DNA of 64,000 bases from Closterium sp. NIES-65 (taxonomy: Eukaryota; Streptophyta; Zygnematophyceae; Desmidiales; Closteriaceae). A program made the position numbers and the translations under genes. Positions 45,750-64,000 of the stretch are shown here, in pieces (the stretch's first letter is position 1; each line of letters begins with the position of its first letter). Location: assembly GCA_948144175.1 (NCBI GenBank), contig CANXME010002275.1:2856001-2920000 (forward strand), in the 5' to 3' direction. The notes under the pieces are model-generated. The model made no database searches, was not told the origin of the DNA, and was given only the letters and a program-made list of their open reading frames with translations.

Positions 45750-46532
45750 CTAGTCCTCTATTTCCTCATCCAAGTCCATGTTTAAGTCCAGCCCACCCAT
45801 ACCTCCACCCATGCCCAAGCCTAGACCCCCACCCACTATTCTGGCAGAATTTCCAACCAAAGCAACACCAGCGCCAGCAGAAGCAGCAGGATGAACACCT
45901 CGTGCTCCCACCCCACCCACTCCCCCAGCACCCGCGCCCCTCTCCAATGTGAACTCCAGGCTCACTCCTCCCCCGCCTCCTCCAACATCCCCCCCACCTC
46001 CAGCCCTGTGTGGATCTCCCACCAGCCAACCAGCGGACGCCATGTGTCCATGCACACGCTGCTGCCCTGCATCCACATCATCAGAAGCAGCAGCACCGAC
46101 ACTACTGACAGTGCCAGCAGCAGGCTTGGCATCAACGCAGGGAGCAGCGGAACCACCAGCAGCTGCAGCGGCGGCGGCGGCGGCGGCAGCAGCAGCCTTG
46201 GCAGCGGCGGACATGCGCTTGCGGGGACCAGAGCTGTCGCGCTTGATGAGCTGCCGCTTGAGCATCTTCTCCAGGTACTTCACCCTCCGCACCACCACCT
46301 TCGCCTTCGGTGCCCCCTCCCCTGCCGCTCCCCCGCCTGCCCCGTCCTCGTCCGCCTGCTCGCTGCCGCCTCTCCCTCCCTCGCCGGCGCCACTGCCGTC
46401 CGCCTCTGCCGCGGCCTTGCGGGGCCCTGCCTTGCCCTTGGCGGCCTTGCTGGGCGCTATGAGCGCCGCAAAGGGCAGCTCCGCGTCCTTCATGATGGCC
46501 GCCCACGACCCGTACCCGTGCAAGAATATGCC
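45750..46532 (-). CDS. CHD-like gene terminal exon 10
   Basis: 260 codons and a TAG stop. It begins GIFLHGYGSWAAIMKDAELP directly after the acceptor CGTTAG, completing the second module. Then come a lysine/alanine and Gly/Glu linker, the helix VVVRRVKYLEKMLKRQLIKR, a poly-Ala run, Gly-rich sequence and an acidic end LDLNMDLDEEIED. A polyadenylation signal follows about 57 nt later. Confidence 0.66.
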   Translation of the reverse strand, partial: GIFLHGYGSWAAIMKDAELPFAALIAPSKAAKGKAGPRKAAAEADGSGAGEGGRGGSEQADEDGAGGGAAGEGAPKAKVVVRRVKYLEKMLKRQLIKRDSSGPRKRMSAAAKAAAAAAAAAAAAAGGSAAPCVDAKPAAGTVSSVGAAASDDVDAGQQRVHGHMASAGWLVGDPHRAGGGGDVGGGGGGVSLEFTLERGAGAGGVGGVGARGVHPAASAGAGVALVGNSARIVGGGLGLGMGGGMGGLDLNMDLDEEIED

Positions 46533-49500
46533 CTAACGAGGGGGAAGAGGGGTCGACGGGGGAGGGGAGTGGGGGCACAGAGATGAAAGCTGGGCTGGGG
46601 GGGTGGAGGCCAGCATGAACGATGGCCACGCAGGAGGAGGGTGAGCAGTGGAGATATCGAGATGGACAGCAGCCGGTAAGCAACCATGCATCCAATGAAT
46701 GCATAGCAAGCTGCCACACACCTTGACGAGCCCCTTGTCGTGGATGCCACACACCTTGATGAGCCCCTTGTCGTGGATGCCACACACCTTGACGAGGCCC
46801 TTGTCGTGGATGCCACACACCTTGACGAGCCCCTTGTCGTGGATGCCACACACCTTGACGAGCCCCTTGTCGTGGATGCCACACACCTTGACGAGCCCCT
46901 TGGCTTGGATGCCACACACCTTGACGAGCCCCTTGGCGTGGATGCCACACACCTTGACGAGCCCGTTGTCGTGGATGCCACACACCTTGACGAGCCCCTT
47001 GTCGTGGATGCCACACACCTTGACGAGCCCCTTGTCGTGGATGCCACACACCTTGACGAGCCCCTTGTCATGGATGCCACACACCTTGACGAGCCCCTTG
47101 TCGTGGATGCCACACACCTTGACGAGCCCCTTGTCGTGGATGCCACACACCTTGACGAGCCCCTTGGGGTGCATGCCACACACCTTGACGAGCCCCTTGT
47201 TGTGGATGCCACACACCTTGACGAGCCCCTTGTCGTGGATGCCACACACCTTGACGAGCCCCTTGTCCTGGATGCCACACACCTTGACGAGCCCCTTGTC
47301 GTGGATGCCACACACCCTGACGAGCCCCTTGTCGTGGATGCCACACACCTTGACGAGCCCCTTGTCGTGGATGCCACACACCTTGACGAGCCCCTTGGCG
47401 TGGATGCCACACACCTTGACGAGCCCCTTGGCGTGGATGCCACACACCTTGACGAGCCCCTTGTCGTGGATGCCACACACCTTGACGAGCCCCTTGTCGT
47501 GGATGCCACACACCTTGACGAGCCCCTTGGCGTGGATGCCACACACCTTGACGAGCCCCTTGTCGTGGATGCCACACACCTTGACGAGCCCCTTGTCGTG
47601 GATGCCACACACCTTGACAAGCCCCTTGTCGTGGATGCCACACACCTTGACGAGCCCCTTGTCGTGGATGCCACACACCTTGACGAGCCCCTTGTCGTGG
47701 ATGCCACACACCTTGACGAGCCCCTTGTCATGGATGCCACACACCTTGACGAGCCCCTTGTCGTGGATGCCACACACCTTGACGAGCCCCTTGTCGTGGA
47801 TGCCACACACCTTGACGAGCACCTTGTCGTGGATGCCACACACCTTGACGAGCCCCTTTGTTAGAAGAGAGAGAATTGATACATTGAATAATGAGCCAAG
47901 AGGCTCTTTAGTACAAACAATGAGCAAGAGAGAGATGGGAGGGAAGCTTACCCTATTGGCCAATAAGTTGGCCAATGGGTGAGCTTGCTTGTGACCCAAG
48001 CAACCACAAATGTGTGTTGGTTGGGATTGGTTGAGCTAAGGACCAATCCCAACCAACCACAAAATGTGGTTGGAGGGTACACTAAGCAACCCCCCAATTT
48101 ATAAATGTGCTACACTTCTAGCCTATGTATGTTGTATGAAATATGAAATTACAACACCCTTGTCGTGGATGCCACACACCTTGACGAGCCCCTTGGCGTG
48201 GATGCCACACCCCTTGACGAGCCCCTTGTCGTGGATGCCACACACCTTGACGAGCCCCTTGTCGTGGATGCCACACACCTTGACGAGCCCCTTGTCGTGG
48301 ATGCCACACACCTTGACGAGCCCCTTGTCGTGGATGCCACACACCTTGACGAGCCCCTTGGCGTGGATGCCACACACCTTGACGAGCCCCTTGTCGTGGA
48401 TGCCACACACCTTGACGAGCCCCTTGTCGTGGATGCCACACACCTTGACAAGCCCCTTGTCGTGGATGCCACACACCTTGACGAGCCCCTTGTCGTGGAT
48501 GCCACACACCTTGACGAGCCCCTTGTCGTGGATGCCACACACCTTGACGAGCCCCTTGGCGTGGATGCCACACACCTTGACGAGCCCCTTGTCGTGGATG
48601 CCACACACCTTGACGAGCCCCTTGTCGTGGATGCCACACACCTTGACGAGCCCGTTGTCGTGGATGCCACACACCTTGACGAGCCCCTTGTCGTGGATGC
48701 CACACACCTTGACGAGCCCCTTGGCGTGGATGCCACACCCCTTGACGAGCCCCTTGGCGTGGATGCCACACACCTTGACGAGCCCCTTGTCGTGGATGCC
48801 ACACACCTTGACGAGCCCCTTGGCGTGGATGCCACACACCTTGACGAGCCCCTTGTCGTGGATGCCACACACCTTGACGAGCCCCTTGTCGTGGATGCCA
48901 CACACCTTGACGAGCCCCTTGTCCTGGATGCCACACACCTTGACGAGCCCCTTGTCGTGGATGCCACACACCTTGACGAACCCCTTGTCGTGGATGCCAC
49001 ACACCTTGACGAGCCCCTTGTCGTGGATGCCACACACCTTGACGAACCCCTTGTCGTGGATGCCACACACCTTGACGAGCCCCTTGGCGTGGATGCCACA
49101 CACCTTGACGAGCCCCTTGTTGTGGATGCCACACACCTTGACGAGCCCCTTGTCGTGGATGCCACACCCCTTGACGAGCCCCTTGTCGTGGATGCCACAC
49201 CCCTTGACGAGCCCCTTGGCGTTGATGCCACACACCTTGACGAGCCCCTTGTCGTGGATGCCACACACCTTGACGAGCCCCTTGGCGTGGATGCCACGCA
49301 CCTTGACGAGCCCCTTGTCGTGGATGCCACACACCTTGACGAGCCCCTTGTCGTGGATGCCAGCGCGCCACCAGGCGGGCAGGTCGTGCGACTTGTACGT
49401 GGACAGGCCCAGCCGGAACCAGTCCCCGCCAAACACCACCACCGCCCTGCGCAGCACCTCCACCGCCTCCAACCGCTCTAGCAGCCTCTCCTGGTGACGC

Positions 49501-52500
49501 GGGCGGACATGCATGCGGTCCCGCGGTGGGATAAAGGGAAGAAGGAAAATAGAAGGGGCCGCAAAAATGGAGCGGTTGGAGTAAGGGAAGAAGGAAAATA
49601 GAAGGATCTTTCATGGATTACATGGCATCAGTATTAGGGTCTAACGGTCATCAACCCACTGCTGTCTTGGCATCAACTGACCGCTGTCTTGGCATCAACT
49701 GACCGCTGTCTTGGCATCAACTGACCGCTGTCTTGGCATTGAGCACAGAGTCTTCTGGAGTGAGCAGCACGCTCTCCCCATCCCCCTCCGCCCCACCTTC
49801 TTCCCCCACTCTCGGTTGCCCCCTGCGCTGCCTCCTCGCCTTCGATGCCTCTCGCTCCCCACACAGCAGACACTGCGAAGGCCAGCAGGGACGAGACAGG
49901 GGGCAGTGCGGGGCAGAGAGGGGGAGAGGGTAAAGAGTGGAGGTGGTGGCATGTGTGCATGAGGCGAACCGTGAAAGGCCATATGAGAGGAGCAGAGGGA
50001 TGCGGACATGGCAGGTGACAGGCATGTTACCGGACAGCAGGCAGGGTGGCCTTCTCCCAGCGCAAACGTCCTCTTGCCCGCCGCGCCACCGCCACCTGCC
50101 TCCCTTCCATTCCCTTCCCCTCCGTCCCCCACTTCCTCTCCTTCCTCTCCTGCTGCAGCAGCAGCCAAAGCAGCATTGGAAGCAGCATTGGAAGCAGCAT
50201 TGGAAGCAGCATTGGAAGCAGCGGAGGCAGGCGAGGAGGCAGGCAGGCCCTGCAGGCGGCGCTGCATCTCAGCGATGACGTCATCGAAGCACCCCGCCAC
50301 GGAGGCTGTTGACCTGGCGAGCACGGATGGCAGGTGCGAGTGGTCCCGCAGCTGCTGCCAGCTCACAGTGCTGCCGCCGCTGCTGCTGTTGCTGCCCTGC
50401 TGCTGCTCCTGTTGGTGTGAGGGGAAGCATGTTGGTGTGAGGGGAAGCATGTTGGTGTGAGGGGAAGCACGTTGGTGTGAGGGGAAGCACGTTGGTGTGA
50501 GGGGAAGCACGTTGGTGTGAGGGGAAGCACGTTGGTGTGAGGGGAAGCACGTTGGTGTGAGGGGAAGCACGTTGGTGTGAGGGGAAGCATGTTGGTGTGA
50601 GGGGAAGCACGTTGGTGTGAGGGGAAGCACGTTGGTGTGAGGGGAAGCACGTTGGTGTGAGGGGAAGCACGTTGGTGTGAGGGGAAGCACGTTGGTGTGA
50701 GGGGAAGCACGTTGGTGTGAGGGGAAGCACGTTGGTGTGAGGGGAAGCACGTTGGTGTGAGGGGAAGCACGTTGGTGTGAGGGGAAGCATGTTGGTGTGA
50801 GGGGAAGCATGTTGGTGTGAGGGGAAGCACGTTGGTGTGAGGGGAAGCACGTTGGTGTGAGGGGAAGCACGTTGGTGTGAGGGGAAGCACGTTGGTGTGA
50901 GGGGAAGCACGTTGGTGTGAGGGGAAGCACGTTGGTGTGAGGGGAAGCACGTTGGTGTGAGGGGAAGCACGTTGGTGTGAGGGGAAGCATGTTGGTGTGA
51001 GGGGAAGCATGTTGGTGTGAGGGGAAGCATGTTGGTGTGAGGGGAAGCATGTTGGTGTGAGGGGAAGCATGTTGGTGTGAGGGGAAGCATGTTGGTGTGA
51101 GGGGAAGCATGTTGGTGTGAGGGGAAGCACGTTGGTGTGAGGGGAAGCATGTTGGTGTGAGGGGAAGCACGTTGGTGTGAGGGGAAGCATGTTGGTGTGA
51201 GGGGAAGCACGTTGGTGTGAGGGGAAGCACGTTGGTGTGAGGGGAAGCACGTTGGTGTGAGGGGAAGCATGTTGGTGTGAGGGGAAGCACGTTGGTGTGA
51301 GGGGAAGCACGTTGGTGTGAGGGGAAGCATGTTGGTGTGAGGGGAAGCACGTTGGTGTGAGGGGAAGCACGTTGGTGTGAGGGGAAGCACGTTGGTGTGA
51401 GGGGAAGCATGTTGGTGTGAGGGGAAGCACGTTGGTGTGAGGGGAAGCACGTTGGTGTGAGGGGAAGCACGTTGGTGTGAGGGGAAGCACGTTGGTGTGA
51501 GGGGAAGCACGTTGGTGTGAGGGGAAGCACGTTGGTGTGAGGGGAAGCACGTTGGTGTGAGGGGAAGCACGTTGGTGTGAGGGGAAGCACGTTGGTGTGA
51601 GGGGAAGCACGTTGGTGTGAGGGGAAGCATGTTGGTGTGAGGGGAAGCACGTTGGTGTGAGGGGAAGCACGTTGGTGTGAGGGGAAGCACGTTGGTGTGA
51701 GGGGAAGCACGTTGGTGTGAGGGGAAGCACGTTGGTGTGAGGGGAAGCACGTTGGTGTGAGGGGAAGCACGTTGGTGTGAGGGGAAGCACGTTGGTGTGA
51801 GGGGAAGCACGTTGGTGTGAGGGGAAGCACGTTGGTGTGAGGGGAAGCACGTTGGTGTGAGGGGAAGCACGTTGGTGTGAGGGGAAGCACGTTGGTGTGA
51901 GGGGAAGCACGTTGGTGTGAGGGGAAGCACGTTGGTGTGAGGGGAAGCACGTTGGTGTGAGGGGAAGCACGTTGGTGTGAGGGGAAGCACGTTGGTGTGA
52001 GGGGAAGCACGTTGGTGTGAGGGGAAGCACGTTGGTGTGAGGGGAAGCACGTTGGTGTGAGGGGAAGCATGTTGGTGTGAGGGGAAGCACGTTGGTGTGA
52101 GGGGAAGCACGTTGGTGTGAGGGGAAGCACGTTGGTGTGAGGGGAAGCACGTTGGTGTGAGGGGAAGCACGTTGGTGTGAGGGGAAGCACGTTGGTGTGA
52201 GGGGAAGCACGTTGGTGTGAGGGGAAGCACGTTGGTGTGAGGGGAAGCATGTTGGTGTGAGGGGAAGCACGTTGGTGTGAGGGGAAGCACGTTGGTGTGA
52301 GGGGAAGCACGTTGGTGTGAGGGGAAGCACGTTGGTGTGAGGGGAAGCACGTTGGTGTGAGGGGAAGCACGTTGGTGTGAGGGGAAGCACGTTGGTGTGA
52401 GGGGAAGCACGTTGGTGTGAGGGGAAGCACGTTGGTGTGAGGGGAAGCATGTTGGTGTGAGGGGAAGCACGTTGGTGTGAGGGGAAGCACGTTGGTGTGA

Positions 52501-55500
52501 GGGGAAGCACGTTGGTGTGAGGGGAAGCACGTTGGTGTGAGGGGAAGCACGTTGGTGTGAGGGGAAGCACGTTGGTGTGAGGGGAAGCACGTTGGTGTGA
52601 GGGGAAGCACGTTGGTGTGAGGGGAAGCACGTTGGTGTGAGGGGAAGCACGTTGGTGTGAGGGGAAGCACGTTGGTGTGAGGGGAAGCACGTTGGTGTGA
52701 GGGGAAGCACGTTGGTGTGAGGGGAAGCACGTTGGTGTGAGGGGAAGCACGTTGGTGTGAGGGGAAGCACGTTGGTGTGAGGGGAAGCACGTTGGTGTGA
52801 GGGGAAGCACGTTGGTGTGAGGGGAAGCACGTTGGTGTGAGGGGAAGCACGTTGGTGTGAGGGGAAGCACGTTGGTGTGAGGGGAAGCACGTTGGTGTGA
52901 GGGGAAGCACGTTGGTGTGAGGGGAAGCACGTTGGTGTGAGGGGAAGCACGTTGGTGTGAGGGGAAGCACGTTGGTGTGAGGGGAAGCACGTTGGTGTGA
53001 GGGGAAGCACGTTGGTGTGAGGGGAAGCACGTTGGTGTGAGGGGAAGCACGTTGGTGTGAGGGGAAGCACGTTGGTGTGAGGGGAAGCACGTTGGTGTGA
53101 GGGGAAGCACGTTGGTGTGAGGGGAAGCACGTTGGTGTGAGGGGAAGCACGTTGGTGTGAGGGGAAGCACGTTGGTGTGAGGGGAAGCACGTTGGTGTGA
53201 GGGGAAGCACGTTGGTGTGAGGGGAAGCATGTTGGTGTGAGGGGAAGCACGTTGGTGTGAGGGGAAGCATGTTGGTGTGAGGGGAAGCATGTTGGTGTGA
53301 GGGGAAGCATGTTGGTGTGAGGGGAAGCACGGGACAGGATGGTTGGGTTGAGCAGGGGCAGAGCAGGTTGAAGCACATGATAGGCGCACTGTCTCTCAAC
53401 ATCCATCCTTCACAACCACCCCTCACCTCACACGGCTCGTCCTGCTGCCGCCATGCCGCTGCTCCCGAGGGGTGCGAGGGGAAGAACGGGATGGGGAAGA
53501 CCTCATGGGGTGAGCGTGCTCAGTTGCTATACAAGACAAATGCAGTGCACGCGCACAGCATTACGGTGTGTTGTAGCAGTGCAGCACGGCACAGCACGTT
53601 AATGTTTCAGGCACTTGTACGGGCATGGGCGTGAATGCACCCCCAAATCAAACAAGCCACGACTCACAGCGGGCAGCCCCCACAGCATGAGCCACTCACA
53701 GCGGGCAGCCCCCACAGCATGAGCCACTCACAGCGGGCAGCCCCCACAGCATGAGCCACTCACAGCGGGCAGCCCCCACAGCATGAGCCACTCACAGCGG
53801 GCAGCCCCCACAGCATGAGCAGGCGCAGCAGCTCCAGCTTCTCCTTGCGGCTCCACGCCGTGTCCGCCCCTCCCTGTGCCGCCCCTCCCTGTGCCGCCCC
53901 TCCCTGTGCCGCCCCTCCCTGTGCCGCCCCTCCCTGTGCCGCCCCTCCCTGTGCCGCCCCTCCCTGTGCCGCCCCTCCCTGTGCCGCCCCTCCCTGTGCC
54001 GCCCCTTCCCCTTCCCCATGCGCCCCCCCTGCCCCGTGTGCACGCCAGCGGCCGCCACCCTGCGCGCCCTCCGCGTCCCCCTCCCGTTCCTCCGCCTGTG
54101 CCTCCCACTCCATCTCCTCCCCCACGCCACCACCCATCTCCACCGCTCCTGCACCTCGTCCGCCCCCCCTCGTGCCCCCACGCCCCCGCCCTCTTCTCCC
54201 CCTCCCCCGCCCCCCCCCTACCGCTCGCGTCAGCAGCACCAGTTTCTCCTCCACCTGCTGCCCCGCCCCTCCCTCCTCCCCGCCCTCTGCCTCGCCCCCT
54301 GCCCCGCCCCCTCGCCCCTCCCCCTCTCTCCACACCGCCTAGTCCGCCCTCCCCTCGCCCCCCACCTCGCCTCACAGGGGCATCCTCGTTCCACTCCTCC
54401 CCCGCGCCCTCATCCCCCTCTTCCCCCCTTTCCCCTGCCCCATCCCCCTCCTCCCCATACTCTTCCCCGTGCTCCCCATGCTCCCCCCGCCCTCCCCACT
54501 GCTCCTCCTCCTCCTCCTCCCCCCCGTACTCCTCATAAGCCCCTCCTGCGTTCCCCACTCTTTCTCTCCCTCCCCTTCCTCCTGCTCCTCCCCCATCAGC
54601 TAACCCCCATCCTCCTCTCCCCTCTCTTCCCACTCCCCTTCCCCTGCCTACCCTCCCTCTCCCCCCAACGCCCCCTCTTCCGCCGATGTCCCCACCCCTC
54701 CCGCCACCACCACCAGCAGCAACGGAAGCAGCGGCGGGGGCAGCAGCAGCAGCAGCGGCAGCGGCAGCAGCAGCAGCAGCGGGGGCAGCCCAGGCATCGG
54801 AGGCGGGGGGAAGGGCGCGCTTGAAGTGCGCGGGGGTGAAGGCGGGGGGAGGACCCGTCAGCGTGGGCGCAGGCTGAGGCTTCTTCGCCAGCTGTGGGGA
54901 GGAAGCGGGGGGTAGGAGTGGGGAGAGGAGAGGGAAAAGGACGGGGGAGAGGAGGCGGAAGAGAAGGCGGTAGAGGAAGGGGGATAGGAGGGGAGAGAGT
55001 GTGAGAAAACGTGAAGAACCAGCACTTTGATTCCATTGAAACAGGCAAGGGAATGCATGGTTGGATGGGACGCGGGGGTTGTTGGGTTCTTGTCTGCCAT
55101 CATTCCCACAATTACTGGATCTCCAACATTCTCCACCCTTTAGCTAAGGATGCACTCACACTAGACTTGGGTGCCTACGTCTACCCAAGCGATGAAGGAT
55201 ATATGCAGGACACAGTACACTGGTATTCTAACAGAGAGGAGGGGAAAGAGAAGAGAGGGGACAGAGGAGAGGGGATAGAGAAGAGGGGCAAGAGGAGAGG
55301 GGACAGGATGGGAGGTAGGAGGGGGGACAGGAGGGGAGAGAGGAGGGGAGAGAGGAGGGGAGAGAGGGGGGGAGAGAGAGGGGGAGAGAAGGGAGTGACT
55401 CCATTGCTATGTGAGTGGGCACATGCATCCCTCATTTCTTGGCCTCACTACTGCACCTGTAAACTGCTCTGAAACGTTGTATGCGCATGCAAACGTGTAG

Positions 55501-58500
55501 CATGGTAGCACAGACACTTTGAATGCCATCAGATAGCGAGGCAAAGAGGTGGCGAGGCAGAGAGAGGACGGCGAGCAGGCAATATGGGGAGGAGCAGAGA
55601 GCAGGGAGCAGAGAGCAGAGAGCAGGGAGCAGAGAGCAGAGAGCAGAGAGCAGGGAGCAGAGAGCAGAGAGCAGAGAGCAGGGAGCAGAGAGCAGAGAGC
55701 AGAGAGCAGGGAGCAGAGAGCAGGGAGCAGGGAGCAGAGAGCAGAGAGCAGGGAGCAGAGAGCGGGGAGCAGAGAGAGGGAGTCGGGGCGCACGGATCGC
55801 TTGATGCGCACGAGGTGCTCAATGAGTCGCTTCAGCCGCCGCGTCAGCGTGTACGCGTCCAACCACCCCTCCTCCTCGCCCCCCGCCCCTCCCTCCTCCC
55901 CAACCTTCTCACCCTTCTCCTCCCCTTTCTCCCCACGCGCCCCCCTGTCCCTCTGGGGCTTGCGGAGGTGCGGCCCGAGGGCAGAGTCGCCATACACGGC
56001 CTCGTACGCGCCGTACCCGTGCAGAGCCACGCCCAGCAGCAGCGCCAGGTCAGCGTCGCGCGCCCACCAATGCGCGGGCAGCGTGGCGTCGGTGAGCGCC
56101 GCCACGTGGTGGCATGCGAGGGCGAATCCCGTGCTGCGCGCCATGAAGCCCAGCACCTCGTGCTGATGGGGGGGGAGACGAATGGAGGGAGACAGGCACG
56201 GGGGTCAGGAAGAAAAGGGGGTGGCTTGTCAGTGTAACGGCAGCTGATGCTGAGCGGGGAGAGAGGAAGGGAGAGAGAGGAGATGGGTGAGAGATGGTGA
56301 TGGTGAGACATCAGAACGATTATACAACCAAGTCACTCGCCCCAGATACCGCGTGCACCACACACCCGTCTCCCTCGCCCCCCTCCCGCCCACACACCCG
56401 TCTCCCTCGCCCCCCTCCCGCCCACACACCCGTCTCCCTTGCTCCCCTCCCGCCCACACACCCGTCTCCCTCGCCCCCCTCCCGCCCACACACGCACGAG
56501 CTGCTCCAGCAGGCGCAGGCGGCGCAGCCACGTGCGCGCACAGCTCGCCACCGGCACCCGCTCCCACCACCCCACCCGCCGAGCTATCCCATCCCCCTCC
56601 CCTCCCCCTCCACCTCCCTCTCGCCCTCCCTCTCCCTCGCCATCACCCCCCTCGCCACCGTCCCCCGGGGCGCCCAAGGGGACGTTGGCGAGGGAGGCGA
56701 GGTGGGAGAGGCGGCGCTGCGCCCAGGCGAGGTCACGCGGGTCGAGGGCATCGGGGGGCTGCAGCGTTGAACATGCACGCAGGAAGTGGCACGTGGCGTC
56801 CACCACGTCCCCCGCCCCGTGCCGCTCGCTCCTCATGCTCGCCCGCATGCTGCCCAGCACCTGACCGCGTCACGGGCACACAGAAGGGCAGGGCAGGGGG
56901 AGGTGGGGGGGATATGTGGGGAGGGAGGGACGGGGCGAGGAGTGGAGCGGAGTGCAGAGCTGTATGGAATGGTGGTGGCGTTGGAGGCTGGGCTGTAGGC
57001 TGCGGCACAGCATGGAGGCGGACACGAGGCACACAGGGCGTATGAGAGAGAGCAGAGAGGAGAGGGTGGAGGCGGAGGGTGTTGCAGCAAGAGCGGTGGC
57101 GGAAGGGCGGGGCGGGGCGGGGCGGTGACTGGCACCAACCACTCACTGCACCAACCACTCACTGCACCAACCACTCACTGCACCAACCACTCACTGCACC
57201 AACCACTCACTGCACCAACCACTCACTGCACCAACCACTCACTGCACCAACCACTCACTGCACCAACCACTCACTGCACCAACCACTCACTGCACCAACC
57301 ACTCACTGCACCAACCACTCACTGCACCAACCACTCACTGCACCAACCACTCACTGCACCAACCACTCACTGCACCAACCACTCACTGCACCAACCACTC
57401 ACTGCACCAACCACTCACTGCACCAACCACTCACTGCACCAACCACTCACTGCACCAACCACTCACTGCACCAACCACTCACTGCACCAACCACTCACTG
57501 CACCAACCACTCACTGCACCAACCACTCACTGCACCAACCACTCACTGCACCAACCACTCACTGCACCAACCACTCACTGCACCAACCACTCACTGCACC
57601 AACCACTCACTGCACCAACCACTCACTGCACCAACCACTCACTGCACCAACCACTCACTGCACCAACCACTCACTGCACCAACCACTCACTGCACCAACC
57701 ACTCACTGCACCAACCACTCACTGCACCAACCACTCACTGCACCAACCACTCACTGCACCAACCACTCACTGCACCAACCACTCACTGCACCTACCACTC
57801 ACTGCACCAACCACTCACTGCACCAACCACTCACTGCACCAACCACTCACTGCACCAACCACTCACTGCACCAACCACTCACTGCACCAACCACTCACTG
57901 CACCAACCACTCACTGCACCAACCACTCACTGCACCAACCACTCACTGCACCAACCACTCACTGCACCAACCACTCACTGCACCAACCACTCACTGCACC
58001 AACCACTCACTGCACCAACCACTCACTGCACCAACCACTCACTGCACCAACCACTCACTGCACCAACCACTCACTGCACCAACCACTCACTGCACCAACC
58101 ACTCACTGCACCAACCACTCACTGCACCAACCACTCACTGCACCAACCACTCACTGCACCTACCACTCACTGCACCAACCACTCACTGCACCAACCACTC
58201 ACTGCACCAACCACTCACTGCACCAACCACTCACTGCACCAACCACTCACTGCACCAACCACTCACTGCACCAACCACTCACTGCACCAACCACTCACTG
58301 CACCAACCACTCACTGCACCAACCACTCACTGCACCCACCACTCACTGCACCGACCACTCACTGCACCAACCACTCACTGCACCAACCACTCACTGCACC
58401 AACCACTCACTGCACCAACCACTCACTGCACCAACCACTCACTGCACCAACCACTCACTGCACCAACCACTCACTGCACCAACCACTCACTGCACCAACC

Positions 58501-61500
58501 ACTCACTGCACCACCAACCACTCACTGCACCAACCACTCACTGCACCAACCACTCACTGCACCAACCACTCACTGCACCAACCACTCACTGCACCAACCA
58601 CTCACTGCACCAACCACTCACTGCACCAACCACTCACTGCACCAACCACTCACTGCACCAACCACTCACTGTACCAACCACTGCACTGCACCAACCACTC
58701 ACTGCACCAACCACTCACTGCACCAACCACTCACTGCACCAACCACTCACTGCACCAACCACTCACTGCACCAACCACTCACTGCACCAACCACTCACTG
58801 CACCAACCACTCACTGCACCAACCACTCACTGCACCAACCACTCACTGCACCAACCACTCACTGCACCAACCACTCACTGCACCAACCACTCACTGCACC
58901 AACCACTCACTGCACCAACCACTCACTGCACCAACCACTCACTGCACCAACCACTCACTGCACCAACCACTCACTGCACCAACCACTCACTGCACCAACC
59001 ACTCACTGCACCAACCACTCACTGCACCAACCACTCACTGCACCAACCACTCACTGCACCAACCACTCACTGCACCAACCACTCACTGCACCAACCACTC
59101 ACTGCACCAACCACTCACTGCACCCACCACTCACTGCACCAACCACTCACTGCACCAACCACTCACTGCACCAACCACTCACTGCACCAACCACTCACTG
59201 CACCCACCACTCACTGCACCGACCACTCACTGCACCAACCACTCACTGCACCAACCACTCACTGCACCAACCACTCACTGCACCAACCACTCCCTGCACC
59301 ACTGCACTGCACCCACAAGCCTCTCATTCCCCCCCACCGCCACCGCGCTCACCATGGGCGGTAGGGTGAGCCCAAATGCGGGCACGGCTGCACGGCCTTC
59401 CGCAGCGCCTCGCCCCAGCCAGCCACCGCAACCACCAGCCCCCACGCGCACCTGCACCCATGCACCCATGCAGCCGCTCCCCCTCCCCACCAGTTACTCT
59501 CGCAAGCCCCCACTCCCTTCTTCCCCCGCATCCTCGTCGCTCACCATGGACGGTCGGGTGAGCCCAAACGCGAGCAGGGCCTTCCTCAGCGCCTCGCGCT
59601 CATTCGCCCGCCACACCAGCAGCCGCCGAACCATCTGCTTCGGCCGACCCACCACGGGAACGCTGCCCTGCAGCCCCTGCGCGCCCCCCACCTGCCCCAG
59701 ATGCCTCTTCATCCCCCCCTGCTGCTGCTGCCTTCGCAACGGTGCATCCTCCTCCCACTCCGCCCCAGCCGCCTCTTGTTTCAACCGTAAACCTGCCGCC
59801 ACCGCCCCACCTTCAGCTGACTCGCCACCAGCACACACGGCAGCGGACGACTCAGCATCCCAGCCCGCCGGCTTCATTCCCCTCCCTCCCCTCCCTCTCC
59901 CTCGCCCTCCTCTGCCCCGTCCTCCCCGCCCCCCTGCACTGCCCGCCCCCACATCCGCCTCCGCCTTCCCCTTCACTCCCCTCCCACCAGCAGCAGCTGT
60001 TGCCCCAGCAGCAGCTTGCATGGCGGGTGGGAGGAGCGGGAGGAGCGAGTCAAAGTGGAGGTGAGGGAGGGCAGGCGGGCTGACGGGGTCTGTGGAGACG
60101 AACGGGAGGGGGCATGCATGATGGGTCACACGGGAAGGGGAGGTTGGTTAGATGACGTGCATTCATGGAATGGAGAACTTGGTGTGGGGACGCAACGCGA
60201 GCAACGGCAAGGGAGCGAAGCGCATGCAGGGTGCAACCACCAAGGAGTAGCAGGGGGAGGGGAGGCGGGCACGGCACGCACCGAGGAGGTCCAGTGGCGG
60301 CACGATGGGGAAGAGCTTGACGGGCGGCAGGGGCTTTCCCGCATCCACTATGTCCTGCCCGCATGGGGGGAGGGGTGGGCCACGCGCAGAGCGGGAGAGG
60401 GAAGAGAGCGGTTATAGGCCAGGCAGAACGTGAGCAGGCTTCAGAGTGGCGTGGCGCCCTTGTGGAGCAGCGAGTCCGAGTTGATGGAGGTTTGGAGCAG
60501 GGAACGGGGCGAGCAAGCAGGGAGCAGAGAAAAAGACGCGCTCCCAACCAGAGCACACATATTGCACTCTGCACCAACCCCTCCCCATCGCCACCCACAT
60601 CCATCCCACGTCCCACCTGCCCTCACCCCGTCTCGCCCCGACCCCAGCACACCCTTCCACGCCTCCCCCACCCTCATCCACCCCCACACACCTCATGCCA
60701 CAGGCGCTTCCCTCCCCACACCTGCTGCCATCCCTCCCCCCATCCACCCCCCTACCCCACCGGGTGCCAGAGGCACTCCAGGTGCCAGAGGTGCTACGGT
60801 ACCAGCTGTCCCCCCCATTCCCACCTCTATCCCACCTCTCCCCCTCGTTACCTGCTGCCAGAGGCACTACTCCCCCTTCTTTCCCCCCCACCTGGTGCTA
60901 GAGGCGCTGGTGCTAGAGGCGTTGTGTCTCCCACCTGGAGCCAGAGGCGTTGTCTCTCCCACCTGGAGCCAGAGGCGTTGTCTCTCCCACCTGGAGCCAG
61001 AGGCGTTGTCTCTCCCACCTGGAGCCAGAGGCGTTGTCTCTCCCACCTGGAGCCAGAGGCGTTGTCTCTCCCACCTGGAGCCAGAGGCGTTGTCTCTCCC
61101 ACCTGGTGCCAGAGGCGTTGTCTCTCCCACCTGGAGCCAGAGGCGTTGTCTCTCCCACCTGGAGCCAGAGGCGTTGTCTCTCCCACCTGGTGCCAGAGGC
61201 GTTGTCTCTCCCACCTGGTGCCAGAGGCGTTGTCTCTCCCACCTCCCCCTCCCCCTCCCTCACCCCCTCACCCTCCCCACCTGGTGCCAGAGGCGCTTCC
61301 CCCCTCTCCCCCCTTGTCCCACCTGGTGCCAGAGGCGCTTCCCCCCTCTCCCCCCTTGTCCCACCTGGTGCCAGAGGCGCTTCCCCCCTCTCCCCCCTTG
61401 TCCCACCTGGTGCCAGAGGCGTTGGCGCACGATGAGGTCGCGGCACAGCTGCACACACTCGTCCATGCACTGCGACTCCAGCCGTCGAATCCTCTCCTCG

Positions 61501-63209
61501 CGATCAACGGTCGAGATCCTGTCCAGGCTGGTCTGATCCCACACGCGTGGAGCAGGCAGAGCAGCAGCAATGGCAGCTGCCTCCTCCGCCAGCGACCCCT
61601 CCCCAGCAGCCGCGGCTCTCATGGCTGCAGCAAACCGGACAGCCACACTCGCACCCGTATCTGATGCCCCCTTGCCCTGCTTCTCATCCTGCCCCTCCTG
61701 CTCCCCCTCTTCCTGCCGCTGCTGCTGCTGCAGAGTGTGCCCACTGCCTGTGCCTGCCTCTGCTCTGCCACCCTCTGCTGCCGACCGTGCTGCCGACCGT
61801 GCTGCAGCCGTGGCAGCAGGCGGGGTGGGGGGCGGGGGGAGCAGGGGGAAGGGCGAGTGCGCCTCCTCAGTGAGCCGCAGCCGCCCTGGCACCGCCTCTC
61901 TCTCCGCCGCTGCTGCCTCGTTATACCGCCCACCCCCATACCTACTGCCCACGTACGCGTCCTCCCCTGCACGCCCATACCCCTCGCCCTCCTCCCACTC
62001 ACTGCCCGCCCCTGCCTCCTCCTCACTTGCCTCTCTCCCTGCAACGCTCCCTCCCCTTCCTCTTCCCCCTCCCCTTCCCCGTCCCCTCCCCCTGCCTCTC
62101 CCCCTACCCCGCCCAGGGGACAGAACATCACCCCCACCAAGCACATCACCCCCACCAAGCACATCACCCCCACCAAGCACATCACCCCCACCAAGCACAT
62201 CACCTCCCCCACCATCTCCTGCCTGTCCTCCCCTTCCTGTGCCTTCCGCTTCCCCCCCTTCCAATCCCCTTCCCCCAAGCCTGCCTCTCCCCCTGCCCCT
62301 GCCCCGCCCCCGCCCTCGCCCCAGCGCCTTCCCCGGGCTGCCAGAGTGCCTTTCATGGGCGCTTTCACTCGCTATAGAGTCATCTCCGTGCACTCCATCT
62401 CCGTTATAAGCATCCTCGTGCTCTTGCAGCCCCTGCTGCTGGCGCACGGATGGGTGTGGTAAGGGAGGCAGAGGGCCACTGGATTTGCGCTTCAGGGGAG
62501 CAACAGCCCCGCCTCCCCTTCCCCCCACCCCTCCTCCTCCCCCTCCTCTTCCTCTCCCCCGCCCCCTCCCGCGCCCAGCGCCCCCTCTTGGAGCAGGCAC
62601 TCCTCCCGCTGCGCCTCTGCCCCCCAGCGCCCCCCCCTCGCCCCCATCCGCGCTGTGCTGCGCGCTCCCCCTGCGCTGGTTGAGCGGAACATCCTCCTCG
62701 GACTCGTCCCCCCCTTCCCCCTCCGCCTCTTCGCTCCCCTCGTCGCCCTCCTCGAAATACTCTGGCTGCTGCTGCCGCTCTTGCTGCAGGTGAAACGGGT
62801 TGTAGCGTCTCTGCTGATGCTCCCCCTCCCAATCACCCGCCAAGCCTCCCCCCACGTCAACGGCTCTCCCGCCCATCCTGCCCTCCCCTCTCCTTTCCCC
62901 CTCGCCCCCCAACCCGCTTACCCCCCCTAGGCCACCCCTATACTCGTCCATTCCCCCAACCCTAATTTTATCAGGATTGCTGGCAGCATGGCCGGCAGGA
63001 TGGCCGGCAGCATGGCCGGCAGCATGGCCGGCAGGATGGCCGGCCCTGGCATGGGCAGTTGGGGCGCGTTGGCCTGAGTGGCCTGTGCTGCCGGAACCAG
63101 CGGGCGGACGGGAGAACGGCGATTCCCCCTGAAGCGGATTCGGCGGAATAGCGGGAAGCATTCCGCGGAATCTACCTTGCCCGCGCGCGCCGTCCATAGG
63201 TATGATCAA
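45750..63209 (-). CDS. CHD-type chromatin remodeller, C-terminal half (subfamily III-like)
   Basis: My exon model (minus strand): E1 about 63000-61407, E2 60354-60282, E3 59996-59545, E4 56860-56498, E5 56162-55794, E6 54891-54376, E7 53873-53796, E8 50408-50031, E9 49490-49335, E10 46532-45750. All junctions are GT..AG with compatible phase (only E2/E3 is phase 1). Motif order matches the region after the helicase in CHD6-9/Kismet: a SANT-like helix (EREALRKALLAFGL, E3), DVVDATCHFLRACS (E4), PAHWWARDADLALLLGVALH then GYGAYEAV and TRRLKRLIEHLVRIKR (E5), WSRKEKLELLRLLMLWGL (E7), SWQQLRDHS (E8), LPAWWRAGIHDKGLVK (E9) joined to GIFLHGYGSWAAIMKDAEL (E10). RGG and acidic low-complexity linkers are abundant. 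The SNF2 motor and chromodomains are not here and should lie beyond 64,000. Family members slide nucleosomes with ATP; that this one does is inference. The model needs transcripts for proof. Confidence 0.68.
46713..49361 (-). repeat. 33-bp minisatellite made of the exon 9 donor junction, about 71 copies
   Basis: The unit on the minus strand is 27 bp identical to the end of exon 9 (GGCATCCACGACAAG then GGGCTCGTCAAG) plus the donor GTGTGT. About 35 copies lie at 46713-47858 and about 36 at 48157-49361, divided by a solo LTR. The unit is 11 codons long (GIHDKGLVKVC), so the array stays open in frame with the exon. Single-base variants (GTC/GCC at the Asp codon, occasional others) are scattered. 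Every copy keeps AAG|GTGTGT. The array makes up most of intron 9. Confidence 0.93.
47859..48156 (-). mobile_element. Solo LTR inside the 33-bp minisatellite
   Basis: 298 bp reading TGTTGTAATTTC..CTTCTAACA on the minus strand. It is flanked by ccctt on both sides (47854-47858 and 48157-48161), and this word is part of the minisatellite unit, which resumes in register afterwards. It holds no coding sequence, primer-binding site or second LTR. It therefore inserted after the array had formed. Confidence 0.83.
49335..49490 (-). CDS. CHD-like gene exon 9, start of the second WW-HGYG module
   Basis: 52 codons, phase 0: ERLLERLEAVEVLRRAVVVF, GGDWFRLGLSTYKSH, DLPAWWRAGIHDKGLVK, then the donor AAG|GTGTGT. 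In CHD7-9 the same place reads LPEWWxCGKHDRDLLIGAAK. The last 27 bases plus the donor are the unit of the 71-copy array that follows. Confidence 0.68.
49663..49738. repeat. 22-bp tandem repeat, about 3.5 copies
   Basis: Unit ACTGACCGCTGTCTTGGCAT plus two bases, in the intron between exons 8 and 9. No splice-junction relationship was seen for this small array. Confidence 0.85.
50031..50408 (-). CDS. CHD-like gene exon 8
   Basis: 126 codons, phase 0. The acceptor AACAG at 50409 terminates the 146-copy array. After a Ser/Gln/Gly start come SWQQLRDHSHLPSVLARSTA, VAGCFDDVIAEMQRRLQGL, a tandem SNAA repeat (12-bp unit) and an acidic tail. The donor CCG|GTAACA at 50030 is my choice; an earlier GCAG|GTGGCG is possible. 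It corresponds to the W(T/E)xFRxxxRL and helical block that follows the exon 7 motif in CHD6-9. Confidence 0.58.
50411..53330 (-). repeat. 20-bp minisatellite of the exon 8 acceptor tract, 146 copies
   Basis: Exactly 146 units of GTTGGTGTGAGGGGAAGCAC (plus strand). On the minus strand each unit reads as a pyrimidine tract (CTTCCCCTCACACCAAC), and the last unit runs straight into AG, forming the acceptor of exon 8. Variation is almost confined to the last base of the unit, C or T, which turns a CpG at the unit boundary into TpG. No unit except the last ends in AG. The long frames over this array (over 1000 codons in all three minus frames) come from the repeat alone. Confidence 0.95.
53662..53820 (-). 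repeat. 32-bp array of the exon 7 end and donor, 5 copies
   Basis: On the minus strand each unit contains CTCATGCTGTGGGGGCTGCC, CGCT and GTGAGT, meaning the last 26 bases of exon 7 with its donor. The first copy is the exon itself (donor at 53795) and four more follow in the intron. Confidence 0.92.
53796..53873 (-). CDS. CHD-like gene exon 7, short helix exon
   Basis: 26 codons (GGADTAWSRKEKLELLRLLM, then LWGLPA), phase 0, between acceptor GGCACAG and donor CCCGCT|GTGAGT. It matches the WxRREEADFYRxVSTFGV motif of CHD6-9. It is bracketed by a 15-bp array ending at its acceptor and a 32-bp array starting at its donor. Confidence 0.62.
53871..54005 (-). repeat. 15-bp array at the exon 7 acceptor, 9 copies
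   Basis: Minus-strand unit GGCACAGGGAGGGGC. Each copy contains the acceptor-like CACAG|GG, and the last one is the acceptor I chose for exon 7. The unit is five codons, so an in-frame coding reading (QGGAA) is also possible if an upstream acceptor is used. Confidence 0.88.
54376..54891 (-). CDS. CHD-like gene exon 6, low-complexity linker
   Basis: 172 codons if the donor is CCCCT|GTGAGG at 54375. Starts LAKKPQPAPTLTGPPPAF and TPAHFKRALPPASDAW, then an Ala run coded by a GCA/GCT microsatellite, an RGG segment and a Glu-rich segment ending EEWNEDAP. The EDAP motif recurs in exons 1 and 3. The 3' end is less certain than the 5' end because the sequence stays GC-rich and open beyond it. Confidence 0.5.
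55250..55390. repeat. GA-rich imperfect repeat
   Basis: Plus strand GAGGGGAGAGAG-type repeats, a pyrimidine-rich tract on the coding strand, inside intron 5. No junction relationship is evident. Confidence 0.6.
55595..55770 (-). repeat. 7-bp array next to the exon 5 donor, about 25 copies
   Basis: Minus-strand units CTCTGCT and CCCTGCT alternate right after the exon 5 donor region (55793). The array is pyrimidine-rich on the coding strand. Units do not obviously contain the donor, so the relation to the junction is positional only. Confidence 0.85.
55794..56162 (-). CDS. CHD-like gene exon 5, first WW-HGYG module
   Basis: 123 codons, phase 0 at both ends (acceptor CATCAG, donor TCC|GTGCGC). 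HEVLGFMARSTG leads to LPAHWWARDADLALLLGVAL and HGYGAYEAVYGDSALG, the module written LPTWWDxEADKSLLIGVFKH in vertebrate CHD7. A charged linker and DAYTLTRRLKRLIEHLVRIK follow, matching the later TARLRRLVTAYQ-type helix. This is the most diagnostic exon. Confidence 0.7.
56363..56490 (-). repeat. 32-bp array next to the exon 4 donor, 4 copies
   Basis: Minus-strand unit containing GTGTGTGGGCGGGAGG and CGAGGGAGACGG. It begins within a few bases of the exon 4 donor (GTGCGTGTGTGGGCGG), so each unit copies the first intron bases. Confidence 0.88.
56498..56860 (-). CDS. CHD-like gene exon 4
   Basis: 121 codons, phase 0 at both ends (acceptor GGTCAG, donor CTC|GTGCGT). Contains VLGSMRASM, DVVDATCHFLRACSTLQPP, WAQRRLSHLASLANVPLG, a Gly/Glu linker and RTWLRRLRLLEQL. 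The last helix corresponds to the RVRMLYYL-type motif that precedes the first WW-HGY module in CHD6-9. Confidence 0.62.
57131..59306 (-). repeat. 16-bp minisatellite with a GTGAGT in every unit, about 136 copies
   Basis: Plus-strand unit ACCAACCACTCACTGC, minus strand GCAGTGAGTGGTTGGT, which contains the consensus donor GTGAGT. It fills most of intron 3, between a duplicated exon 3 end (59350-59413) and exon 4. Variants are very few (CCTACC, CCCACC, CCGACC and one or two length changes near 58512 and 58682), indicating recent homogenisation. Confidence 0.95.
59350..59413 (-). repeat. Diverged duplicate of the exon 3 end and its donor
   Basis: Minus strand GAGGCGCTGCGGAAGGCC, then TTTGGGCTCACCC, then CCCATGGTGAGCG. 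This parallels the exon 3 end (GCGCTGAGGAAGGCC.. TTTGGGCTCACCC.. TCCATG|GTGAGCG) about 190 bp upstream in the gene. It shows that junction duplication also happens as a single dispersed event. Confidence 0.8.
59545..59996 (-). CDS. CHD-like gene exon 3, SANT-like helix
   Basis: About 150 codons: a basic RGG segment, AEWEEDAPLRRQQQQ, VGRPKQMVRRLLVWRANE and REALRKALLAFGLTRPSM, ending at the donor ATG|GTGAGC. The last helix corresponds to the short SANT-like motif before the acidic and WW-type modules in CHD6-9. A second acceptor at 60014 would keep the same frame. Confidence 0.6.
60282..60354 (-). CDS. CHD-like gene exon 2
   Basis: 73 nt encoding DIVDAGKPLPPVKLFPIVPP and then LDLLG, between acceptor GGGCAG and donor G|GTGCGT. 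It begins in phase 0 and ends in phase 1, which agrees with the phase needed by exon 3. Confidence 0.55.
60930..61407 (-). repeat. 28-bp and 42-bp arrays of the exon 1 end and donor
   Basis: Three 42-bp units at 61281-61407 encode RLWHQVGQGGRGGK and each contain CACCAG|GTGGGA, the end of exon 1 with its donor. About eleven 28-bp units at 60930-61240 keep CGCCTCTGG, CTCCAG or CACCAG, and GTGGGAGAGACAA. More degraded copies reach about 60,770. The 42-bp units are in frame; the 28-bp units are not. Confidence 0.92.
61407..63209 (-). CDS. CHD-like gene exon 1 of the window (5' limit uncertain)
   Basis: Open for about 600 codons. It has RRYNPFHLQQERQQQPEYF, an acidic patch leading to SEEDVPLNQRRG, long RGRGRGRG runs, a GGGDVL repeat, Ala-rich and Gln-rich tracts, then DREERIRRLESQCMDECVQL and CRDLIVRQRLWHQ. 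It ends at the donor CACCAG|GTGGGA. The true 5' end may be an acceptor near 63,000, because the first 70 codons contain a GHAAGHPA repeat made by a 12-bp tandem array. The start at 63209 is only the limit of the open frame. Confidence 0.55.
62120..62212 (-). repeat. 18-bp in-frame coding repeat (GGGDVL), 5 copies
   Basis: Unit AAGCACATCACCCCCACC on the plus strand, coding for GGGDVL on the minus strand within exon 1. Because the unit is six codons long, copy-number change would not disturb the frame. Confidence 0.88.
62980..63050 (-). repeat. 12-bp tandem repeat at the 5' limit of exon 1
   Basis: Plus-strand units GCCGGCAGGATG and GCCGGCAGCATG, about six copies, directly before the first clearly gene-like sequence. 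By analogy with the other introns this may mark an acceptor junction. Confidence 0.8.
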
Positions 63210-63395
63210 ATGACCCGACCCGACCCGACCCGACCCGACTTTGGCGGGCCAGCCGGGTTCCGGGTCGGGTCGGGTCGGGTCGGAACTTTTGAGATCTCTG
63301 GCCCGACCCGGGTATCGGGTGCCGGGTCAGGCTTGACCCGCCCCCGGGTCGGGTCGGGTCGGGGCCGGGTCGGGTCGGGTCGGGCCGACTCCCAT
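63208..63395. repeat. ACCCG/GGGTC pentamer cluster, inverted halves
   Basis: ACCCG runs on the left half face GGGTC runs on the right half, so the cluster can fold back on itself. The GGGTCGGGTCGGG runs also satisfy the simple pattern for a G-quadruplex (four or more G3 runs with two-base loops). Confidence 0.85.
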
Positions 63396-63765
63396 AGGCA
63401 GGGTTAGAGGTTCTCCTTAATAATGTGTAGGGGCGCGGGTCTAGCGACCTGCGCCTGCACGGCGCGCCGAGATGCCCTAAAACGCGGGCCTGCAATGCGC
63501 GCGCCTAGGGTGGGAGCGCGACCTGTAAATTTCGGATTTAAAAGAAACCCTAAGATGGATGGCGCGAAGTGCGAAGTGCGATTGGCTGAGTACTAACTAA
63601 ACATTATCGTGGGTTCTAGGGTAGATTAGTACGCCAATGTTGCTTGGTGGGTGGCTGCTGGCGTCACTAGCTAGTTAACCTAACTTAATCCAGATCGAAA
63701 TGCTAGTTGCTGGGAAAACAAGCAAGCGCGATTGCGATCTGGATAACATTGTCGAGAGGAAACCC
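63396..63765. other. Unique spacer between two pentamer clusters
   Basis: About 370 bp of unremarkable sequence with no recognisable gene. It could be an intron or the upstream region of the CHD-like gene. Confidence 0.4.
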
Positions 63766-64000
63766 TCGGGTCGGGCCAGATCCCAACCCGAGATAGGGCG
63801 CGGTACCCGAAACCGGGTCGAGTCCATAATCGGGTCAAAACCCGACCCGACCCGACCCGACCCGGAATCGGGTCACGGGTCAACCCGACCCGGCCGGGTA
63901 TACCCGACCCGACCCGGCCGGGTCAGTGGTTCAGAACTCCTGACCCGACCCGGGTCAAAACCCGGGTCGGGTCGGGTCGACCCGACCCGCCGGGTCCCTA
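63766..64000. repeat. Second ACCCG/GGGTC pentamer cluster, continues past the window
   Basis: Mixed-orientation GGGTC and ACCCG runs with CCGGCCGGGT at their turning points, continuing to the last base of the window. Confidence 0.85.

Follow-up and report, generated by a model that had tools for sequence, protein, structure and literature searches.

The host gene and its splice junctions

The 64,000-nucleotide stretch of the Closterium sp. NIES-65 genome analyzed here (C1977:2856001-2920000, hereafter the window) contains on its reverse strand a gene, called the host gene below, several of whose introns carry tandem repeat arrays, some of them lying across 5' splice sites (donors). The searches described as genome-wide cover the 874-Mb assembly. 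The predicted product is a CHD1-like helix-turn-helix (HTH) protein: spliced exons 9 and 10 scored 30.5 bits against PF23588 (HTH_CHD1_Hrp3), above the curated cut-off of 27, which places the protein in this family. Keeping one or two units of the 33-bp array of intron 9 between these exons lowered the score slightly (29.7 and 29.4), and scores below the cut-off were obtained when the exon 10 frame was used by itself (22.5), with a shortened version comprising exons 7-10 (21.6) and with the exon 5 frame (18.3). Homologs of the spliced protein were found in NIES-67 (83% identity, 25% of the query covered), Marchantia (29%, 93% covered) and Physcomitrium (28%, 97% covered), together with an unnamed ENA protein (30%, 31% covered). 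Exon 5 used alone as a query returned no homolog, and a 91-aa query from exons 9 and 10 matched only the two copies of the host gene, the second of which is described below. The Marchantia and Physcomitrium homologs carry PF05964, PF05965 and PF23588; PF05964 and PF05965, which we take to be FYRN and FYRC, were not found in the host-gene frames scanned within the window.

Exons 1 to 5, the start of exon 6, the end of exon 7, and exons 8, 8b, 9 and 10 were located (Table 1); as the border between exons 6 and 7 was not placed, this gives nine introns. Junctions were assigned by protein comparison, mostly against predicted proteins. The exon 3/4 junction (FGLTRPSM/VLGSM) aligned gap-free with FGLGRADKVRDVM, the exon 4/5 junction (LRLLEQL/HEVL) with LRLLDSLQEVI, the exon 7/8 junction (LLMLWGLPA) with LLMRWGAPL, and the exon 8b/9 junction (SVLNAKTA/ERLLERL) with SILNAKTAERLLERL of NIES-67. 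Across the exon 9/10 junction (HDKGLVK/GIF), the predicted protein of NIES-67 reads HDKGLVKGIF, with no repeat in between. The aligner gave no placement for the exon 1/2 junction, for which RQRLWHQ and LQRQWK were paired by visual inspection alone. What an initial annotation of this DNA had treated as intron 8 conceals exon 8b (49872-49726), an exon supported by homologs, whose donor lies inside a 22-bp array that had been missed. The deposited automatic protein model for the gene, P0005, runs from exon 1 into array units (61260-61407) and stops 16 residues past the exon 3 donor, and by its sequence it looks truncated.

Arrays at splice donors

Tandem repeat finding (TRF) recovered every array named by the initial annotation. 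Four arrays, in introns 1, 7, 8b and 9, cover a donor and reach 15, 25, 14 and 28 bases, respectively, into the preceding exon. Copies of the exon end were detected further downstream in five of the nine introns (1, 3, 7, 8b and 9; E <= 0.01), whereas copies of the start of the next exon were limited, among the same nine introns, to two weak matches (16 nt in intron 2 and 23 nt in intron 7). When nine arrays with the observed unit lengths were placed at random on the collapsed introns, 0.54 donors were expected to be covered against the four observed (post hoc P = 0.001), and 0.68 to lie within 5 nt of an array against the five observed (post hoc P = 0.0002). This test, like the list of 11 main intronic arrays given below, excluded overlapping and weak TRF rows, for example 54906-54999 and 56259-56308; with these two arrays added, the expectations were 0.65 (P = 0.0025) and 0.82 (P = 0.0006). 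The data support duplication that was probably anchored at, or tolerated at, the splice donors of this gene. The earlier proposal that slippage or exchange is nucleated or tolerated at splice junctions is borne out for the donors of this gene; for its acceptors the evidence is limited to two weak, short copies in nine introns.

The 42-, 28- and 15-bp units of intron 1 each hold the last 15 nt of exon 1. Counting the exon itself, 21 copies of the exon end are spread across 715 nt, while the shuffled intron averaged 0.1 matches. These copies decay with distance from the exon: the first six match perfectly, most of those that follow have one mismatch, and the last four have 2-3 mismatches in 18 positions. 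The 33-bp array of intron 9 was counted by TRF as 80.2 copies, a figure that includes an insert resembling a long terminal repeat (LTR), about 70-71 units being real; the insert appears as a 336-nt gap between units in both gene copies.

Other arrays relate to splice junctions less directly. The units of introns 1, 4, 7 and 9 had been described as copying the exon end and/or the donor, which is true of 1, 7 and 9; the donor of intron 4 (CTC/GTGCG), supported by homology, sits just outside its array. Intron 3 does have the reported duplicated donor region, a copy with 74.5% identity, and units bearing GTGAGT (136 spaced GT(A/G)AGT pairs), but the array itself is not an exon copy. At the far end of intron 7, the 20-bp array, annotated as the pyrimidine tract of the exon 8 acceptor, is pyrimidine-rich and abuts the acceptor AG; its consensus unit lacks AG and therefore adds no acceptor copies. 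The 15-bp array in which the acceptor of exon 7 had been placed is purine-rich and in frame into exon 7, so a coding repeat (GAAQG) seems likelier than an acceptor array, and we set the earlier assignment aside without regarding it as disproved.

A second copy of the host gene is present on contig C1648, 56 kb of which was compared. No difference separates the copies in exons 2, 3, 4, 5 and 9, in the initial 300 nt of exon 6 or in the final 60 nt of exon 7; the last 700 nt of exon 1, the part of this exon within the comparison, differs by 2 bases and one 12-base gap, and exon 8 by 12 bases. In the C1648 copy, one inserted base near the contig end shortens the open frame of exon 10 from 260 to 150 aa and may be an assembly error or a real frameshift. 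Relative to the window, the C1648 introns change in length by -139 (intron 1), +1672 (intron 3), +4462 (intron 7) and +73 (intron 9), with no change in introns 2, 4 and 5 or in the previously annotated intron 8. The exon 6-to-7 stretch is longer by 28 bases, a value that comprises a 2-base difference upstream of the 15-bp array (9 versus 11 exact units) and on account of which the coding reading of this array is no more than probable. TRF copy numbers (window/C1648) are 3.5/2.5, 12.1/8.1 and 2/3 for the 42-, 28- and 15-bp arrays of intron 1, 135/240 for the 16-bp array of intron 3, 5/6 for the 32-bp donor array and 146/about 367 (summed over two loci) for the 20-bp array of intron 7, and 80.2/82.2, with the insert counted as units, for the 33-bp array of intron 9. 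Some units of the latter are 32 or 34 bp long in the C1648 copy, being either real or assembly errors. Copy number of the donor arrays thus varies in introns 1, 7 and 9 and is unchanged in 8b; the arrays of introns 4, 5 and 8b have equal length in both copies. The blocks flanking the two gene copies share 95.5-99.1% identity, and about 13 kb of C1648 finds no match at the corresponding position, so the second copy is a true duplicate.

Table 1. Exons and repeat arrays of the host gene (positions in the window; a slash marks an exon border)
Feature	Position	Strand	Remarks
Host gene	45750..63326	-	Exon 1 open frame (5' limit; start codon not fixed) to exon 10 stop; frames and homologs
Exon 1 (open frame)	61407..63326	-	Ends ...RQRLWHQ/; LQRQWK of Marchantia/Physcomitrium matched by eye
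Intron 1, 42-bp array	61276..61421	-	3.5 copies; covers exon 1 donor (CAG/GTGGGA) and 15 exon bases
Intron 1, 28-bp array	60907..61244	-	12.1 copies; units are exon 1 end plus donor
Intron 1, 15-bp units	60690..60921	-	2.0 copies, and decayed solitary exon 1 end copies (1-4 mismatches in 18)
Exon 2	60282..60354	-	
Exon 3	59545..60089	-	Ends FGLTRPSM/GTGAGC; homolog alignment
Intron 3, single decayed tandem copy	59346..59443	-	74.5%; exon 3 end plus donor ATG/GTGAGCG; intron +102 to +199
Intron 3, 16-bp array	57132..59301	-	135 copies; unit holds GTGAGT; no exon copy
Exon 4	56498..56860	-	Homolog alignment
Intron 4, 32-bp array	56358..56493	-	4.2 copies; begins at intron +5
Exon 5	55794..56162	-	HTH-like segment below family cut-off; homolog alignment
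Intron 5, 14/21-bp array	55592..55782	-	Begins at intron +12; no exon copy
15-bp array upstream of exon 7 end	53864..54006	-	(GAAQG)n; probably coding
Intron 7, 32-bp array	53662..53820	-	5 copies (100% matches) of exon 7 end plus GTGAGT; covers donor at 53796 and 25 exon bases
Intron 7, 20-bp array	50411..53331	-	Pyrimidine-rich; 146 copies; ends at base before exon 8 acceptor AG
Exon 8	50031..50408	-	Homolog alignment
Exon 8b	49726..49872	-	Ends ...ESVLLTPEDSVLNAKTA/; homologs
22-bp array at exon 8b donor	49649..49739	-	4.1 copies of 14 nt of exon 8b end plus GTCAGTTG; covers donor at 49726
Exon 9	49335..49490	-	Ends HDKGLVK/GTGTGT; homolog alignment
Intron 9, 33-bp array	46712..49362	-	About 70-71 copies; unit is 27 nt of exon 9 end plus GTGTGT
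Solo-LTR-like insert in 33-bp array	47858..48156		About 300 bp; TG...CA, CCCTT on both sides; read from sequence
Exon 10	45750..46532	-	Starts /GIFLHGYGSW; homolog alignment

Tandem donors across the assembly

We searched the whole assembly for two consensus donors (MAGGTRAGT) with 5-35 bases between them. This pattern had 32,396 matches, compared with 325 for a control motif with TG in place of GT (the GT/TG swap), 1,495 for the reversed motif and 2,217 for the reversed swap, all of these being raw matches that are not normalized to the genome-wide count of the single motif. The reversed controls are unclean: TGARTGGAM can match a donor that precedes GGA, and AGGTGA is contained in TGARGTGAM. 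Because they hold such donor-like strings they may understate the excess, and the GT/TG swap serves better. Relative to the controls, tandem consensus donors are in excess genome-wide. Among the matches listed, and as grouped by eye, the donor pairs form 16 clusters lying between C10 and C64, some of which are single pairs, and about 13 different units are represented; those of the swap control form 33 clusters, the first on C84 and the last on C1385. The single donor motif occurred 10 times, its swap 16 times and its reverse 3 times in 330 kb (the window, 210 kb downstream of it and the 56 kb of C1648, partly duplicate), so this mostly transposon-derived DNA is not rich in the motif; genes will hold more.

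Origin of the arrays and genomic surroundings

We consider it fairly probable that duplications spanning the donors of the host gene were tolerated since the extra copies land inside the intron, and that they then expanded as variable number tandem repeats (VNTRs). A short tandem duplication across the exon/intron border would leave the first donor where it was and move an additional exon end and donor into the intron. If the spliceosome keeps to the first donor, which retains its exon context and is transcribed, and perhaps bound by U1, before the others, the duplication would be silent; it could then persist and change length freely, and the intron would lengthen. The exon end, kept by selection, would serve as a constant copy able to seed fresh units, with older units drifting inward and decaying. 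Slippage or unequal exchange would presumably be the step at the DNA level. Acceptor-spanning duplications, on the other hand, would more often add sequence to the mRNA. A broader and more tentative proposal, to which we give slightly less than even weight, is that minisatellites arise genome-wide at the 5' splice sites of Closterium, with thousands of donor arrays fed by a master copy at the exon edge and invisible in mRNA as the first donor wins. The donor-pair matches found genome-wide would in that case sit at real exon borders.

The neighboring BTB/NPH3 gene (L012:3700-4820, C1977:2923700-2924820) supports junction-linked duplication as a habit of this genome. Its intron holds decayed tandem copies (73-85%) of the acceptor and exon start, and the gene has a 22-bp array with 21 copies, which extends over more than 2 kb in the C1648 copy.

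Several observations weigh against these proposals. By their sequence, the acceptor-side copies of the BTB/NPH3 gene speak against a strict donor-only rule. Within the host gene, the intron 9 array has no decay gradient, the arrays of introns 3, 4 and 5 and the 20-bp array of intron 7 contain no exon-end copy, and the P values given above are descriptive only, as the gene was picked for its pattern. The strict pair pattern is absent from both the window and the 56 kb of C1648, since the donors of the host gene depart from the consensus, and the genome-wide counts therefore measure a related, stricter class. Cluster counts put the excess closer to ten-fold, an approximation made without contig sizes. 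In addition, among the matches listed, one 31-bp unit, possibly a dispersed repeat, occurred on C45 as well as on C55.

The presence of this unit in several variants on the two contigs, along with a 19-bp unit at two places on C62, would fit a different source of the genome-wide excess, namely transposons or dispersed satellites with a donor-like motif lying outside gene introns. We regard such a source as unlikely: the units are diverse (about 13 in the 16 clusters listed), and the 210 kb downstream, mostly retroelement DNA, contained a single donor pair, which was a lone pair and not an array.

It is somewhat less likely still that the host gene simply contains ordinary intronic VNTRs of a repeat-rich genome and that their overlap with donors is coincidental. 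Short introns make some overlap fairly likely (0.54-0.65 donors expected), several arrays ignore exon borders, and the in-gene statistics are post hoc; however, four donors are covered, donors and acceptors differ, and tandem donors reach 22 to 100 times the controls genome-wide by match count. Intronic VNTRs and minisatellites in general have GC-rich units of 14-42 bp and lengths that differ between copies. The Closterium arrays resemble them in unit size, GC-richness and length differences, and differ from them in that the unit is donor-anchored and includes exon sequence.

The initial annotation had suggested that the repeats buffer splicing against mutation or create length-variable isoforms through in-frame units, a function that we find improbable. 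Later donors are identical to the first in introns 1, 7 and 9, so their pairing with U1 would be the same, and about 36 units of intron 9 stay open in frame. Beyond the first donor, however, an in-frame stop follows at +33 in intron 7, +48 in intron 3, +144 in intron 1 and +1209 in intron 9, and at the third codon past exon 8b (VS-stop). Longer in-frame products would arise only from three copies in intron 1 and the units already mentioned in intron 9, all other later donors leading to a frame shift or a stop. Among the 11 main intronic arrays, unit lengths (42, 28, 15, 16, 32, 14, 12, 32, 20, 22 and 33) show no bias toward multiples of three (4 of 11, near the chance proportion), and the predicted NIES-67 protein lacks the repeats. 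Model P0005, in which exon 1 continues into the units, is a prediction, and it likewise continues past the exon 3 donor until it meets a stop.

Intron gain by tandem duplication has been reported for Schizosaccharomyces introns with multi-copy 24-nt units (PMC3629103) and for potato RdRp (PMC4974935). Duplication of exon sequence near an intron is common to those cases and to the host gene, whose units hold an exon end and a donor, and some of its introns might accordingly have been born by tandem duplication of an exonic AGGT segment (the Rogers model) rather than being older introns that were invaded. We think this very unlikely, because the acceptors are located beyond the donor arrays, at distances of 159 to 3254 nt from the last unit, and the unit does not supply both splice sites; in the reported cases the repeat makes a new intron, whereas in Closterium it lengthens one.

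False repeat expansion in the PacBio/Canu assembly, with a redundant contig posing as the second gene copy, is highly improbable: that copy does end about 65 bases past the gene at the contig end and has small indels (the exon 10 base and the 32-/34-bp units), but the flanks of the two copies are diverged, some 13 kb of C1648 is without counterpart, and point differences are present among the array units.

A human minisatellite with multiple splice donors has reportedly been published for the 6-16/IFI6 gene, and the earlier view that no named system of this kind exists was too strong. As in that gene, the arrays of introns 1, 7, 8b and 9 appear to consist of tandem units, each with a 5' splice site at an exon end, and copy number varies in introns 1, 7 and 9. 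The human case is one array in one gene, reportedly with donors used in the transcript; the Closterium arrays, known from sequence alone, involve four donors within a single gene and may form part of a genome-wide class. Among the papers listed in searches of open-licence literature, none described arrays of this type in algae or as a class found genome-wide. If the proposed origin is correct, splice donors would be hot or permissive spots for the birth of repeats, and introns could lengthen by copying their own start, a self-seeding route of growth. Rows of identical donors would then provide many natural experiments on how the spliceosome chooses among them, and the straying of the automatic model P0005 at this gene would be accounted for.

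The surroundings of the host gene are rich in mobile elements. In the 210 kb downstream, 82 of the 92 listed open frames were scanned and, besides the BTB and NPH3 frames on L012, all matches were to retroelement domains. At positions 1-45000 of the window, ten large open frames were scanned, of which eight matched domains of retroelements (copia, gypsy) or of Tc5/DDE_1 transposases and the other two gave no match; this region also contains many internal minisatellites. Upstream of the host gene, CGGGT/ACCCG pentanucleotide repeats are present at 63200-64000.

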